DNA from: an uncultured Woeseiaceae bacterium
GTDB lineage: Bacteria > Pseudomonadota > Gammaproteobacteria > Steroidobacterales > Woeseiaceae
NCBI GenBank assembly: GCA_947259985.1
Contig: CAMYOJ010000015.1
Location: 27,546 to 91,545, forward strand
Direction: 5' to 3'
Length of the DNA: 64,000 nt
Under the pieces are notes generated by a model. It worked only from the letters and a program-made list of their open reading frames with translations. It was not told where the DNA came from and made no database searches. The position numbers and the translations under genes are program-made. Within the stretch, counting starts at the first letter, position 1, and every line of letters begins with the position of its first letter. Shown here in pieces: positions 25,924 through 32,937 of the stretch.

Positions 25924-26735
25924 TCGGAATCCCTGCCCAGTAGCTGTTCTTCATAGCCCGGCGCCTGGAAATGAAACGCGACGGGCCCATCGGCCATGCC
26001 ATGCATGAACTGCCTGACAAGTTCCGACTTGGCGGTGCGCAGCTCATCGGGGCTGCCCGATGCGGCGACTCTACCCTCGGAGATCAGGAAGCTGCGGTCA
26101 GCGACGGTCGACACTTCTGCAACGTCGTGGCTGACGATGATGCTGGTGATACCGAGCGCGTCATTCATGCGCCGTACGAGCCGCACGATCACACCCATAG
26201 AGATAGGATCGAGGCCCACGAAGGGTTCGTCGTAGATCAGTATTTCGGGATCCATGACCATGGCGCGTGCGAGCGCGACGCGACGCGCCATTCCGCCGGA
26301 TAACTGTGCGGGCATCATGTCGGCCGCACCACGCAGGCCCACAGCGTGCAGCTTGGTCAGCACGACATGCCGGATAAGACGATTCGTCAGCTTGGTGTGT
26401 TCTCGCAGCGGGAACGCGACGTTCTCGAAAACGCTGATGTCGGTCAGCAATGCCCCGTTCTGGAACAGCATTCCAAATTGCTGGCGCATCTCGTACAGTT
26501 TACGAATATTCAGCGTGGAAATGTCCACACCGTTGACGTAGATCACACCGTGCTGAGGAATGAGCTGGCGCGTAATCAGGCGCAGCAGCGTGGTCTTGCC
26601 CGTGCCGCTCGGCCCCATCAGCGCCGTGATCTCGCCGCGCTTGATAGTCAGGTTCATACCCTCGAATATCGGCCGCGGACCGCGCGAGTACTTGAGGTCG
26701 TGAATCTCGATCAGGTTTTCTGAAGTTTCGTCCAA
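25920..26735 (-). CDS. mlaF: Mla ABC transporter ATP-binding protein MlaF
   Basis: A 271-residue ATPase. The Walker A is GPSGTGKTT, the signature motif QLSGGMARRVALARAM, and the Walker B ILIYDEPFVGLDP, followed by a switch His in VSHDVAEV. The start is a TTG with no convincing SD. A direct repeat TTTATTGGTG (twice, 26740-26759) lies in the leader. It begins the leftward mlaFEDCB operon, divergent from the iscR-like gene. Confidence 0.95.
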   Translation of the reverse strand: MDETSENLIEIHDLKYSRGPRPIFEGMNLTIKRGEITALMGPSGTGKTTLLRLITRQLIPQHGVIYVNGVDISTLNIRKLYEMRQQFGMLFQNGALLTDISVFENVAFPLREHTKLTNRLIRHVVLTKLHAVGLRGAADMMPAQLSGGMARRVALARAMVMDPEILIYDEPFVGLDPISMGVIVRLVRRMNDALGITSIIVSHDVAEVSTVADRSFLISEGRVAASGSPDELRTAKSELVRQFMHGMADGPVAFHFQAPGYEEQLLGRDSE

Positions 26736-26828
26736 GGGCTTTATTGGTGTTTATTGGTGCTCTCGTCGTTCCCGAGCATACCAAGAATTTCGCCGCCAAA
26801 GTCACCTGAATCGTACCGCGGGTATGGC

Positions 26829-26856
26829 TTGAGCGGATAAATAGGACTAAAATAGT
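26829..26856 (+). promoter_or_regulatory. Predicted promoter of the iscR-suf operon
   Basis: A -35-like TTGAGC (26829-26834), 16 bases, and a -10-like AATAGT (26851-26856). The -10 overlaps the operator below, which would let a bound repressor block RNA polymerase. Each box has about four of six consensus bases. Confidence 0.45.
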
Positions 26857-26858
26857 CC
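26844..26858. promoter_or_regulatory. IscR type 1-like Fe-S operator
   Basis: GGACTAAAATAGTCC is a palindrome whose core GACTAAAATAGTC matches the E. coli IscR type 1 core GACTRWWWYAGTC at all 13 positions. The outer bases are less good: the right flank CCTTAT keeps the TAT, the left flank is AAATAG. It lies 29 bases before the iscR-like start and overlaps the -10. Autorepression by the Fe-S form of the regulator is inferred. Confidence 0.7.
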
Positions 26859-26886
26859 CTTATTTCGACCCTCAAGGGAACATAGC

Positions 26887-27348
26887 GTGCTCAGAATCAG
26901 CAAACTCACAGACTACGGTACCGTCTTGCTGGCGCACCTCGCCGCGCATGAACGGACGGTCTGTAGCGCAGCGGAGGTGGCGGATGCGACTGGAATCGCG
27001 TTGCCGACTGTCAGCAAGCTGCTGAAGTCGCTGGCCCGTTCCGGGCTCGTGACCTCGACGCGTGGCGCCAATGGCGGCTACCAGCTGGCCCGCAACCCGA
27101 ACGACATTAGCGCCGCCGATGTCATCGACGCGCTCGAAGGGCCCGTATCGATAACGGAGTGCAGTTCGGGCGACAGCCTCTGTGAGCACGAGGACGTTTG
27201 CACCGTTGGCGGCGCCTGGCAGCGGATCAACGTCGCCATTCGACGCGCGCTGGACGATGTTTCCCTCAATGACCTGTTGCGAACAAACAGTCAGGTACCG
27301 CAATTCCGCTTCGCGGGGCTGCCGATCAACGTGGAATCAAAGAACTGA
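26887..27348 (+). CDS. iscR: Rrf2-family Fe-S regulator (IscR-type) of the SUF operon
   Basis: A 153-residue Rrf2 transcription factor. The winged-helix part ([47 protein letters not shown]) is followed by three cysteines, C92, C99 and C105, at the positions where IscR binds [2Fe-2S]. The start is GTG behind AGGGAA. It heads the suf operon with 4 bases to the sufB ATG. In apo form such regulators no longer recognise type 1 sites, so suf should rise under iron shortage or oxidative damage. It may also be called SufR by function. Confidence 0.92.
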
Positions 27349-27352
27349 GTAC

Positions 27353-28801
27353 ATGGCCACTGAATCTGAAAATATTGAAAGTCTTGTCAATCGACGCTAC
27401 GAACACGGCTTCGTCACAGACATTGCGACGGATAGCCTGCCGCCGGGTCTCGACGAAGGTGTCGTCCGGGCTATCTCGGCGCGCAAGAACGAGCCCGAGT
27501 TCATGCTCGAATGGCGCCTGCAGGCCTATCGCCAGTGGCTCACGATGCGGGAGCCCGAATGGGCGCACGTGCACTATCCCAAGATCGACTTCAACGCGAT
27601 CTCGTACTTTGCCGCGCCGAAGTCGGACGAAGACCGTCCCAAGAGTCTCGATGAGGTCGACCCGAAGCTGCTGGAAACCTATGACAAGCTCGGTATTCCG
27701 CTGCACGAGCGCGCCCGCCTGGCGGGCGTCGCCGTCGATGCCGTATTCGACAGTGTGTCGGTGGCGACCACGTTCAAGGAGAAGCTCTCCGAGGCAGGCG
27801 TGATTTTCTGTTCGTTTTCCGAGGCAGTAATCGAGCATCCGGAACTCGTGCAGAAGTACCTGGGCTCCGTGGTGCCGCGCCGCGACAACTTCTATGCGGC
27901 GCTCAACTCGGCCGTCTTCAGCGATGGCTCGTTCGTCTACATTCCCAAGGGCGTACGCTGCCCGATGGAACTCTCGACCTACTTCCGCATCAACGCCGCG
28001 AACACGGGCCAATTCGAGCGCACTCTGATCGTCGCGGACGAAGGCAGCCACGTGAGCTACCTCGAAGGCTGCACGGCGCCGATGCGCGACGAAAACCAGC
28101 TGCACGCAGCGGTTGTGGAGCTCGTGGCGCTCAAGGACGCCGAAATCAAGTACTCGACCGTGCAGAATTGGTATCCCGGCGATGAAAACGGCAAGGGCGG
28201 CATCTACAACTTCGTTACCAAGCGTGGCGACTGCCGCGGCGCCAACTCGAAGATCTCCTGGACCCAGGTCGAGACCGGATCGGCCATTACCTGGAAATAC
28301 CCAAGCTGCCTGCTGCGCGGCGAGAACTCGGTCGGCGAGTTCTATTCGGTCGCGGTCACGAACAACCTGCAGCAGGCCGACACGGGCACCAAGATGATTC
28401 ACATCGGGCGCAATACCAGCAGCACGATTGTCTCGAAGGGCATTTCGGCCGGCAAGGCACAGCAGGCCTATCGCGGGCTCGTGCGCATCATGCCGCAGGC
28501 CGAAGGCGCGCGTAATCACACTCAATGCGACTCCCTGCTGATCGGCAAGGAGTGCGGCGCGCACACGTTTCCTTACATGGAAATAAAGAACCCGTCGGCC
28601 AGGGTCGAACACGAAGCTACGACGTCGAAGATATCGGCGAACCAGCTGTTCTACTGCCGGCAACGCGGCATCTCCGAAGAGGATGCCGTCAACATGATCG
28701 TCAACGGCTTCTGCAAGGAAGTCTTCAAGGAATTACCGATGGAATTCGCAGTTGAAGCTCAGGCGCTCCTGAACGTCAGCCTCGAAGGCGCCGTCGGCTA
28801 A
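27353..28801 (+). CDS. sufB: Fe-S assembly scaffold protein SufB
   Basis: A 482-residue protein that with SufD and SufC makes the scaffold complex for new [4Fe-4S] clusters. I take the ATG ([12 protein letters not shown]), which lies 4 bases after the iscR stop, over the ORF track's start inside iscR. Family blocks are present: [48 protein letters not shown], and the conserved C-terminal [25 protein letters not shown]. This is a full-length gene next to a damaged sufC. Confidence 0.97.
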
Positions 28802-28818: not shown

Positions 28819-29484
<666 letters not shown>

Positions 29485-29488
<4 letters not shown>

Positions 29489-30678
29489 GTCGACAGCCAC
29501 ACTCCATCGACGAGTTGCAGGACATCGTCAGCCGACTGCCGTCGACCCGCAACGAGGACTGGAAATACACCGATCTCGCCAGTGCACGGGATATATCCTC
29601 CCGCTGGCTCGCGGCGGGCCGCGAATCCCTGTCGCTCGCATTACAGGACGAGGTAGAGGCCGTCACCCATGCGATCGACGCGAACTGGATTGTCATAGCG
29701 AATGGCGAACTGCAGCATCCTGTCGACGTCAATGGCGCGTCGCGCCTCGACGACGCACCCTCGTCGGATACGGCTCTCGCGGAGCTCAATGCCGCTCTCC
29801 TTAAGGATGGCCTGCGGCTGCGAGTCGAAGACGCGCTCGACAAGCCGATCGGGATCCTCATGATTGACGGTACTGAAGATGCATCTGTATCGCAGGCCTA
29901 CGTCGAGATCGAGTTCGCACCCGGTGCATCCGGGGAAATAATCGAGTATCACGCGTCGAAGGGCGACGCCGATCAGTACGCGAACACGATCGTCTCGGTT
30001 GCGGTCGGCGACGCTGCCTCTGCCAGGCACCTGCGCGTTCAGAACAGGGCTGCGCATCATGTCCAGACCGGCCACACGTCAGTCAGCGTTGGCCGGGATG
30101 CGAATTACACGATGTCGGGCTTCGATCTGGGTGGGGGCCTGATTCGCAACGACGTCATTATCGACATCGCTGCGGCGGGTGCCGAGGTGTCTTTTGACGG
30201 TCTTTATCTCGCCGGCGAAGGCCAGCACATAGACAACCACACACGAGTCGATCATCGGGTCGGGCCTGCACGATCGCGCCAGGAGTATCGGGGGATCCTC
30301 AACGGACATTGCCGCTGCGTATGGAACGGCAAGGCCATCGTCCATGAGGGTGCCGACGGCACAGACGCTGACCAGGCCAATCACAACCTGTTGTTGTCCG
30401 AGAAGGCCGAAATCGACGCCAAGCCCGAGCTCGAGATTTACACCGACGACGTAAAATGCAGTCACGGAACGACGGTCGGGCAGCTCGACGAGACCTCCCT
30501 CTTCTACCTGCGGTCACGCGGCCTCGACAAACGTCACGCGACGCAGGTGCTAACGCATGCCTTTGCGTCCGATCTCGTCGCACGTATGCCCGTCGATGCG
30601 GCAAAGGAAGCACTGGCAACGGTAGTCGAGCATCGACTTGCCGAGTTGCTCGACTCGGACCCGGATACGTTTTCATGA
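29485..30678 (+). CDS. sufD: Fe-S assembly protein SufD
   Basis: A 397-residue SufB paralogue that completes the SufBC2D scaffold and helps iron entry. GNGHCRCVWNGK-type sequence (RGILNGHCRCVWNGKAIVHE) and TDADQANHNLLLSEKAEIDAKPELEIYTDDVKCSHGTTVGQLD are SufD/SufB-family blocks. It overlaps the sufC stop by 4 bases and sufS by 4 bases, so the operon stays coupled even though sufC is damaged. Confidence 0.96.
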
Positions 30679-31916
30679 CGCAGGCCCAGGCTCAACTTGG
30701 CGCATCCGCCGAAGACTGGCGCAAGGATTTCCCGATCCTCGATCAGTCGGTGAGCGGCCATGCGCTCGTTTACCTCGACAGCGCGGCCTCCGCGCAGCAG
30801 CCGCAGTCGGTTATCGATGCCGTCGCCCGCTATCACCAGGAAGACCATGCCAATGTGCATCGCGGCGTGCATACGCTGAGCCACCGCGCCACGGAAGCCT
30901 ACGAGGGCGCACGCGACAAGATCCGCGGGTTTATCAACGCCTCGAGTCGCACCGAGATTGTACTCACGAGCGGCACGACAGAATCGATCAATCTCGTCGC
31001 GCAGAGTTTTTGTCGACCGCGTGTGGGCCCCGGCGACAAGGTCCTGATCACGCATCTCGAACACCACGCGAATATCGTGCCCTGGCAACTGGTTTGCGAA
31101 CAGACCGGCGCCGAACTCGTGGTCGCGCCTATCGACGACGATGGCCAGCTGGAGCTCGAAGCACTGCGTGCGCTCCTGACCGATGATGTCTTCATCCTCG
31201 CCATGGGGCATGTTTCGAACGCGCTCGGCACGGTCAACCCGGTCAAAGAGATTATCGCGGAAGCCCGACAGCGGGACATTCCCGTGCTCATCGACGGGGC
31301 GCAAGGCGTGCCGCACATGCCGATCGATGTTCAGGACCTCGACTGCGACTTCTACGCGTTCTCGGGCCACAAGATGTTCGGGCCGACGGGAACCGGCGTC
31401 CTGTACGCCCGTGAATCGCTGCTGGACGCCATGCCGCCTTACCAGGGCGGCGGCGACATGATTCTCGAAGTCAGTTTCGATGGGACGATCTATAACGAAC
31501 TGCCCTACAAGTTCGAGGCCGGCACGCCGAATATTTCCGGTGTCATCGGCGTCGGCGCCGCGGTCGACTACCTGCAGTCCATCGGCATGGAGCGCGTCGC
31601 CGCATCGGAACAGGTGCTGCACGACTACATGGTGGAGTCGCTCTCGGAAATTGACGGCATGCGTCTGATCGGCACGGCGGGAAACAAGACCAGCGTGCAG
31701 TCCTTCCTGCTCGACGACATCCATTCTCACGACCTGGGCACGATACTCGATCACCAGGGCGTCGCCATCCGCACCGGGCATCACTGCGCGATGCCGGTCA
31801 TGACCCGCTTCGGCATCTCGGGCACGGCGCGCGCTTCGGTGGCCTTGTACAACAACCTCGACGATGTCGATCGACTCGTCGAGGCGCTCCGGAAGGCCCA
31901 GCAGATTTTCGCATGA
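30675..31916 (+). CDS. sufS: Cysteine desulfurase SufS
   Basis: A 413-residue PLP enzyme that takes sulfur from cysteine as a persulfide. PLP Lys is in FSGHKMFGPTG; the catalytic cysteine is in RTGHHCAMPVM, with the C-terminal region typical of SufS/group II. The ATG (MTQAQAQLGAS) overlaps the sufD stop by 4 bases; the longer ORF track start lies inside sufD. Here the transfer partner is SufU, not SufE. Confidence 0.96.
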   Translation: MTQAQAQLGASAEDWRKDFPILDQSVSGHALVYLDSAASAQQPQSVIDAVARYHQEDHANVHRGVHTLSHRATEAYEGARDKIRGFINASSRTEIVLTSGTTESINLVAQSFCRPRVGPGDKVLITHLEHHANIVPWQLVCEQTGAELVVAPIDDDGQLELEALRALLTDDVFILAMGHVSNALGTVNPVKEIIAEARQRDIPVLIDGAQGVPHMPIDVQDLDCDFYAFSGHKMFGPTGTGVLYARESLLDAMPPYQGGGDMILEVSFDGTIYNELPYKFEAGTPNISGVIGVGAAVDYLQSIGMERVAASEQVLHDYMVESLSEIDGMRLIGTAGNKTSVQSFLLDDIHSHDLGTILDHQGVAIRTGHHCAMPVMTRFGISGTARASVALYNNLDDVDRLVEALRKAQQIFA

Positions 31917-32377
31917 ACCAGCAATCCGACGATCTCCGCGAACTTTATCGCGAGCTGATACTCGATCACGCGCGCAGCCCGCGGCATTTCGGGCGGCTCG
32001 AGCATGCCACGCACCAGGCCGCTGGCATCAATCCCTTGTGCGGTGACAAGCTCCGACTGTACTTGCAGGTGGATGCCGATAACCGCATCGAGGACACGAG
32101 CTTCGAGGGCACCGGCTGCGCAATCTCTGTCGCCTCGGCCTCTTTGCTTACCGACACGATCATCGGACAACCCGTGGACAAGGCCGAGGCGTATTTCGAA
32201 TCCATTACAAAACGACTGACTCATGGCGAGCCCGCCGAACTGGACCAGAATCTCGAGAAACTCAGGGCCCTCGATGGCGTCAGGGAATTCCCTTCACGCG
32301 TCAAGTGCGCAACGCTTGCCTGGCATGCGTTGCACTCGGCATTGAATCAGCAGGAAGAACCCGCTACTACGGAGTAA
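31913..32377 (+). CDS. sufU: SUF-type sulfur-transfer protein SufU
   Basis: A 154-residue zinc protein of the SufU/IscU fold that receives sulfur from SufS. The metal ligands C43 and D45 (NPLCGDKL), C69 (GTGCAIS) and C132 (RVKCATLAWH) are all present. The group resembles the SufU of Gram-positive bacteria more than the IscU scaffold, and no sufE occurs in the operon. Overlaps sufS by 4 bases. Confidence 0.93.
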   Translation: MNQQSDDLRELYRELILDHARSPRHFGRLEHATHQAAGINPLCGDKLRLYLQVDADNRIEDTSFEGTGCAISVASASLLTDTIIGQPVDKAEAYFESITKRLTHGEPAELDQNLEKLRALDGVREFPSRVKCATLAWHALHSALNQQEEPATTE

Positions 32378-32937
32378 TGCGCAGGATGTTTGGCCATACC
32401 AACGAACCTTTCTCCTTATCGCGTGACGTCTCGGCGATCATTATCCCTGTCGGCGAACAGGTGACGCTTCGTGAGGGCACGAGCGGGTTCATCACGCAGG
32501 CGCTGGGCGGCAGTTTTACGGTGTATGTCGAAGGCAACCTGTTCCGCGTATCAGGAACCGACGCCGATGCGCTCGGCAAGGAGCCCGTGCCACCACCTGA
32601 AGTCCCCGAGAATGCGACCGACGCAGACATCGAAGCCGTAATCTGGGACCAGCTCAAGACCTGCTACGACCCCGAAATTCCCGTGGACATCGTCAACCTC
32701 GGCCTGATCTATCGCTGCGAGGTGACGCCGCTCGGTAATGGCGACCGCTCGGTCAGCGTGGATATGACGCTAACGGCACCGGGCTGCGGCATGGGCGACG
32801 TTCTCGTAGAGGATGCGCGGGAGAAGATTGCGATTATTCCTACGATCTCGGAGGTGCGGGTCGAACTCGTATTTGACCCGCCGTGGAATGTTGGCATGAT
32901 GACGGAGGAAGCCCGACTGCAAACCGGCCTCATGTAA
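32377..32937 (+). CDS. sufT: Fe-S maturation protein SufT (MIP18/DUF59 family)
   Basis: A 186-residue protein whose N-terminal half is a SufT-specific domain and whose C-terminal half is the MIP18 domain (DPEIPVDIVNLGLIYRCEV, LTAPGCGMGDVLVEDAREKI). Such proteins help load Fe-S clusters on targets. The ATG overlaps the sufU stop (TAATG), so I prefer it to the far-upstream ORF track start. It is the last clear suf gene. Confidence 0.9.
   Translation: MRRMFGHTNEPFSLSRDVSAIIIPVGEQVTLREGTSGFITQALGGSFTVYVEGNLFRVSGTDADALGKEPVPPPEVPENATDADIEAVIWDQLKTCYDPEIPVDIVNLGLIYRCEVTPLGNGDRSVSVDMTLTAPGCGMGDVLVEDAREKIAIIPTISEVRVELVFDPPWNVGMMTEEARLQTGLM

Follow-up and report, generated by a model that had tools for sequence, protein, structure and literature searches.

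The suf locus

The window (the whole stretch of DNA analysed, 64,000 nucleotides from an uncultured Woeseiaceae bacterium) contains a suf operon headed by the gene of an Rrf2-type regulator, with a palindrome just upstream of that gene (Table 1). sufB directly follows the regulator gene, as it does in 78 of 80 relatives (the remaining two loci are truncated), and is followed by sufC, sufD, sufS, sufU and sufT. The divergent neighbour on the opposite strand is mlaF (mlaFEDCB), starting at 26735. The earlier note on this DNA had placed an IscR type 1-like operator before an Rrf2 gene with three cysteines; that gene is present as described, with a GTG start at 26887 and with Cys92, Cys99 and Cys105.

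The sufC frame is disturbed between 28819 and 28913, where about 76 bases ahead of the Walker A motif are missing and the frame is shifted, while relatives encode a full SufC. Since no other SufC in the genome scores above cut-off, an assembly error in the MAG is likelier than a real loss.

Table 1. Features of the regulator-suf region (positions in the window; scores are from the family models named)
Feature	Position	Strand	Basis
-35-like element TGGCTT (relatives TnGCCT), weak, 17 nt upstream of the -10-like element	26825-26830	+	conservation
Extended 25-bp operator, AAATA-GGACTAAAATAGTCC-CTTAT	26839-26863	.	outer A/T positions kept in relatives
Operator core, palindrome GGACTA-AAA-TAGTCC (GGACTAAAATAGTCC)	26844-26858	.	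sequence and conservation
-10-like element TAAAAT, inside the palindrome	26848-26853	+	sequence; kept in relatives
Ribosome-binding-site-like AAGGGA	26874-26879	+	sequence
sufR-type Rrf2 regulator, 153 aa, GTG start; Cys92, Cys99, Cys105, Asp9	26887-27348	+	TIGR02944
sufB	27353-28801	+	NF008773, 931.7 bits
sufC, frame interrupted near start	28819-29488	+	TIGR01978
sufD	29485-30678	+	TIGR01981
sufS, cysteine desulfurase	30672-31916	+	TIGR01979
sufU	31913-32377	+	TIGR01994, 149 bits (cut-off 92.5)
sufT	32371-32937	+	TIGR03406, 255.6 bits (cut-off 202.6)

Family and candidate cluster ligands of the regulator

The regulator scores 165.3 bits against TIGR02944 (suf_reg_Xantho, the gammaproteobacterial SUF regulator, cut-off 110.65), but only 80.4 bits against the IscR model TIGR02010 (cut-off 207.55) and 64.4 bits against the NsrR model (cut-off 182). 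By these profile scores it is a TIGR02944 SUF regulator and not IscR. Besides the score, it has the family's position at the head of the suf operon and its three cysteines, and differs in nothing at the level of the protein.

Cys92, Cys99, Cys105 and Asp9 are invariant in all 57 orthologues, and at the position of IscR His107 the regulator and its orthologues have Gly or other residues, and no His. In the alignment, Ser40, Glu43 and Gln44 of IscR correspond to Pro40, Ser43 and Lys44, and Asp9 falls on E. coli NsrR Asp8, with a matching offset in the alignment to S. coelicolor NsrR. In the solved structure of S. coelicolor NsrR, the [4Fe-4S] cluster takes Asp8 from the other subunit as its fourth ligand, and Ala and Lys stand in for Glu43 and Gln44 of IscR (PMC5411485). 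The regulator appears to possess this NsrR-type ligand set (the Asp8 equivalent and three Cys), and its cluster is probably held in the NsrR manner, by Cys92, Cys99 and Cys105 together with an Asp9 contributed by the partner subunit, rather than in the Cys3-His manner of IscR, whose ligands are Cys92, Cys98, Cys104 and His107. The invariant Asp at the NsrR Asp8 position makes a [4Fe-4S] sensor of the NsrR/RisR kind likelier than a [2Fe-2S] sensor of the IscR kind. In IscR, Glu43 keeps the apo-protein off type 1 sites (PMC5411485); with Ser43 in its place here, any cluster dependence must come from elsewhere. The suggestion that the same Fe-S feedback operates here as in E. coli IscR thus claims too close a likeness for the protein, a TIGR02944 member with neither His107 nor the Ser40/Glu43/Gln44 set.

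The operator and its promoter

The 13-base core of the E. coli IscR type 1 site had been reported as an exact match, and this is borne out: GACTAAAATAGTC occupies positions 26845-26857, within the 15-bp palindrome GGACTAAAATAGTCC, and is the sole match in the window to GACTRWWWYAGTC at up to one mismatch (shuffled sequences give an expectation of 0.46). Exact GACTAAAATAGTC occurs once in the 2.5 Mb genome; GGACTAAAATAGTCC, too, has a single copy in the window and no other in the genome.

Also as claimed, the palindrome overlaps a -10 element, since TAAAAT (five of six consensus positions) lies inside it. A standard sigma-70 scan found no promoter above threshold, because the -35 element is weak. 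Its columns are conserved nonetheless, with T at -19 in 52 and G at -17 in 47 of 55 aligned loci, and in relatives the motif T-n-G-C-C-T lies exactly 17 nt upstream of TAAAAT, which places the palindrome on the -10 of a probable promoter. The spacing between operator and regulator start is nearly fixed across loci, mostly 23-28 nt. Only 3 nt separate the palindrome from the regulator ATG at four loci (L147, L149, L160 and L179), and with TAAAAT as the -10 a leaderless transcript is implied there.

Conservation of the operator

Conservation was followed in two sets of relatives, the upstream regions of 57 regulator orthologues from the genus and order, and 80 loci from named GTDB records that include Woeseiaceae, Steroidobacter and Peristeroidobacter. 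The 15-mer is found with at most four changes in 55 of the 57 regions; in the named set it is identical in 47/80, within two changes in 76/80 and within three in 80/80. The loss of the core from orthologous upstream regions, named in advance as grounds for giving up the operator, is therefore not what is seen. Across the 55 aligned loci, eight columns of the 15-mer are invariant and the rest each hold about 1.2 bits or more, against mostly 0.0-0.5 bits in the flanking columns. The outer A/T positions (-5 to -1 and +17 to +19) are conserved as well, extending the element to 25 bp, and in 55/55 loci the core is bordered by a G and, at its opposite end, by a C. Judged from these alignments, conservation across orthologous upstream regions rules out a chance occurrence of the operator.

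A looser pattern, G[GT]AC-N7-GT[AC]C, was searched within 250 nt upstream of the regulator genes, with the reversed pattern as control. It is present at 55 of the 57 genus and order loci and at 78 of the 80 named loci, the reversed pattern at none in either set. A TIGR02944 member above cut-off was detected in 65 of 232 sampled genomes of the class, and 50 of these 65 members have the pattern (reversed, 1/65). The strict pattern is absent within 250 nt in about a quarter of the class-wide members, several of which show close variants by eye, e.g. ATACTAAATTAGTAT. Two loci from a single family, L202 and L203, whose TIGR02944 scores are very high, have GTAC-N7-GTAC/GTCC with a different centre (GTACAATTTCGGTAC, GTACAATTTTGGTCC), which suggests a lineage-specific form of the box.

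Relation to known Rrf2 systems

Holo-IscR represses from type 1 sites that cover the -10 (PMC12594620, PMC6599224), and for the E. coli type 1 site a 25-bp consensus, ATASYYGACTRWWWYAGTCRRSTAT, has been given (PMC6599224). The site here shares with it the GACT-N5-AGTC core and its spacing, the 25-bp span and the outer A/T positions, and the regulators share three cysteines and repression at the promoter, the last presumed for the present case. Against the full consensus, however, the site matches only 18 of 25 positions and fails at all six SYY/RRS positions. By comparison, 24 and 22 positions match in the two sites of E. coli iscR, and a score of at least 18 is reached by 18 window 25-mers when both strands are counted. 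The match is therefore to the core only, and of the type 1-like operator that had been proposed, the exact core stands while the rest of the motif does not. IscR differs further in its His107, Glu43 and Gln44 and in its protein family, and the operon downstream here is suf rather than isc.

A further parallel is RisR (MXAN_1152, Rrf2 group IS6) of M. xanthus, whose box T(t/g)GAC-N7-GTCC(t/a) has been footprinted over the suf promoter (PMC9973013). Holo-RisR is a suf repressor acting at a site that covers the -10, and probably contains a [4Fe-4S] cluster (PMC9973013). Both systems have an Rrf2 regulator upstream of sufBCDSUT and a site of GGAC-N7-GTCC architecture over the -10. The operator here reads GGAC-TAAAATA-GTCC with AT-rich flanks, over the promoter, with A in place of the published outer T; the G and C beside the core are as in the RisR box and unlike the Y/R of E. 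coli type 1 sites. The cysteines are C92-C102-C108 in RisR and C92-C99-C105 here, and the RisR targets include isc, a system missing here. GAC-N7-GTC spacing is common to E. coli type 1 sites, the RisR box and the present operator. The case shows how regulators that differ in their cluster ligands can use one and the same Rrf2 operator spacing.

NsrR ([4Fe-4S], Cys3-Asp8; PMC5411485) resembles the regulator in the Asp at the Asp8 position, the Lys at the position of Lys45 in the S. coelicolor protein and a similar cysteine spacing. It differs in its operator and in its context of NO detoxification rather than Fe-S assembly, and its model scores below cut-off on the regulator. A comparable case, going by the papers that cite it, is the gammaproteobacterium Xanthomonas campestris, which has SUF only and for whose regulator, called IscR, a type 1 site has been characterised (PMC6599224 and PMC8593673, citing Fuangthong et al. 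2015). SUF-headed Rrf2 regulators are also found in the isc-suf operons of alphaproteobacteria (PMC11475020, PMC4618611). Rrf2 regulation headed by SUF is thus already known from TIGR02944, RisR, the alphaproteobacterial isc-suf operons and X. campestris, and the operator is an ordinary, very well conserved case of a known control type. In the open literature searched, we found neither an operator sequence for the TIGR02944 family nor the literal sequence of this operator. TIGR02944 regulators occur in many gammaproteobacteria, and a defined class-wide operator makes the control of cluster supply directly testable in them. For annotation it follows that IscR cannot be assumed from a perfect IscR core.

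Proposed control and alternative explanations

We propose, with a probability of roughly 0.8, that the palindrome is the operator of the adjacent downstream TIGR02944 regulator, through which the holo-dimer would repress its own gene and sufBCDSUT until the cluster is lost. The cluster-loaded dimer would bind the two GGACTA half-sites, covering the -10 box and the start region and so repressing the regulator gene and sufBCDSUT. Under Fe-S scarcity (iron limitation, oxidants), the regulator would lose its cluster and leave the operator, and the operon would be expressed until clusters are restored. Binding, the direction of control and the cluster type are here modelled on RisR, IscR and NsrR.

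The exact 13-base core, the three cysteines, the -10 overlap and the type 1 site reported, according to PMC6599224, from SUF-only X. campestris would also suit a genuine type 1 site under an IscR-like regulator with a [2Fe-2S] cluster and Cys3-His ligation, which would make this the E. coli circuit transferred to suf. We consider this unlikely, given an IscR score of 80 bits against the required 207.55, the lack of His107 and Ser40/Glu43/Gln44 equivalents, a match of 0/6 at SYY/RRS and 18/25 overall, and, beside the core, a G/C that is invariant in 55 aligned loci, in contrast to the Y/R of E. coli type 1 sites. A broader reading, to which we give even odds with its parts included, takes the gammaproteobacterial SUF regulator for a separate sensor class, with a Cys3-Asp [4Fe-4S] cluster, its own class-wide box G[GT]AC-N7-GT[AC]C and no Glu43 switch. 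The type 1 core would then be held in common with IscR through Rrf2 spacing, by descent or convergence, and the circuit would be a nearly single-target loop, with fur added in at least one genus.

Two further explanations give the site another role. A role for the site in transcription of the divergent mlaFEDCB, instead of or besides suf, is suggested by the mlaF start on the other strand and by the presence of a divergent mlaF at 50 of 80 loci; however, the site keeps a near-constant distance from the regulator start, the -10 and -35 point to sufR, and the operator tracks sufR-sufB (78/80) rather than the divergent mla genes. Because more than a dozen loci with no mlaF detected nearby retain the site, we regard such a role as very improbable. 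The palindrome might instead work at the RNA level by forming a small leader hairpin or terminator, and a terminator scan does return a match at exactly 26844-26858. The stem, however, comprises six pairs only, and where the palindrome ends 3 nt before the ATG it would be left untranscribed if TAAAAT is the -10. The -35-like element exactly 17 nt from the inner TAAAAT also speaks against it, as do unpaired T-C, G-A and C-A combinations at stem positions (at the second pair in 23 of 160 sites, and as four C-A at the fifth); such frequent mispairing fits independent DNA half-sites, and a function in RNA is the least credible of the explanations weighed here.

Missing isc genes and other sites

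The segment had been noted to lack isc genes, and in 60 related genomes IscR and IscU are likewise without a hit above cut-off. The lineage thus depends on SUF, whose wiring is ancestral; a rewired or transferred isc control was rejected on the same grounds, and the idea that isc control had been wired to suf gives way to an arrangement that is standard in the order.

Matches with at most one mismatch in the 60 related genomes are nearly all the suf site itself. At up to three mismatches, this genome has 15 matches in all against 23 for the reversed control, i.e. no excess, and all of the non-suf matches lie in or overlap open frames. GGACCAAAATAGTCC is found upstream of fur in two genomes of another genus in the order, at a distance of 52 nt and with a bamE-like gene on its far side (L095, positions 1501-1515, and L265/L266); the fur genes of the other relatives examined have no such site upstream. 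The SUF regulator may possibly extend to iron control through fur in that genus.
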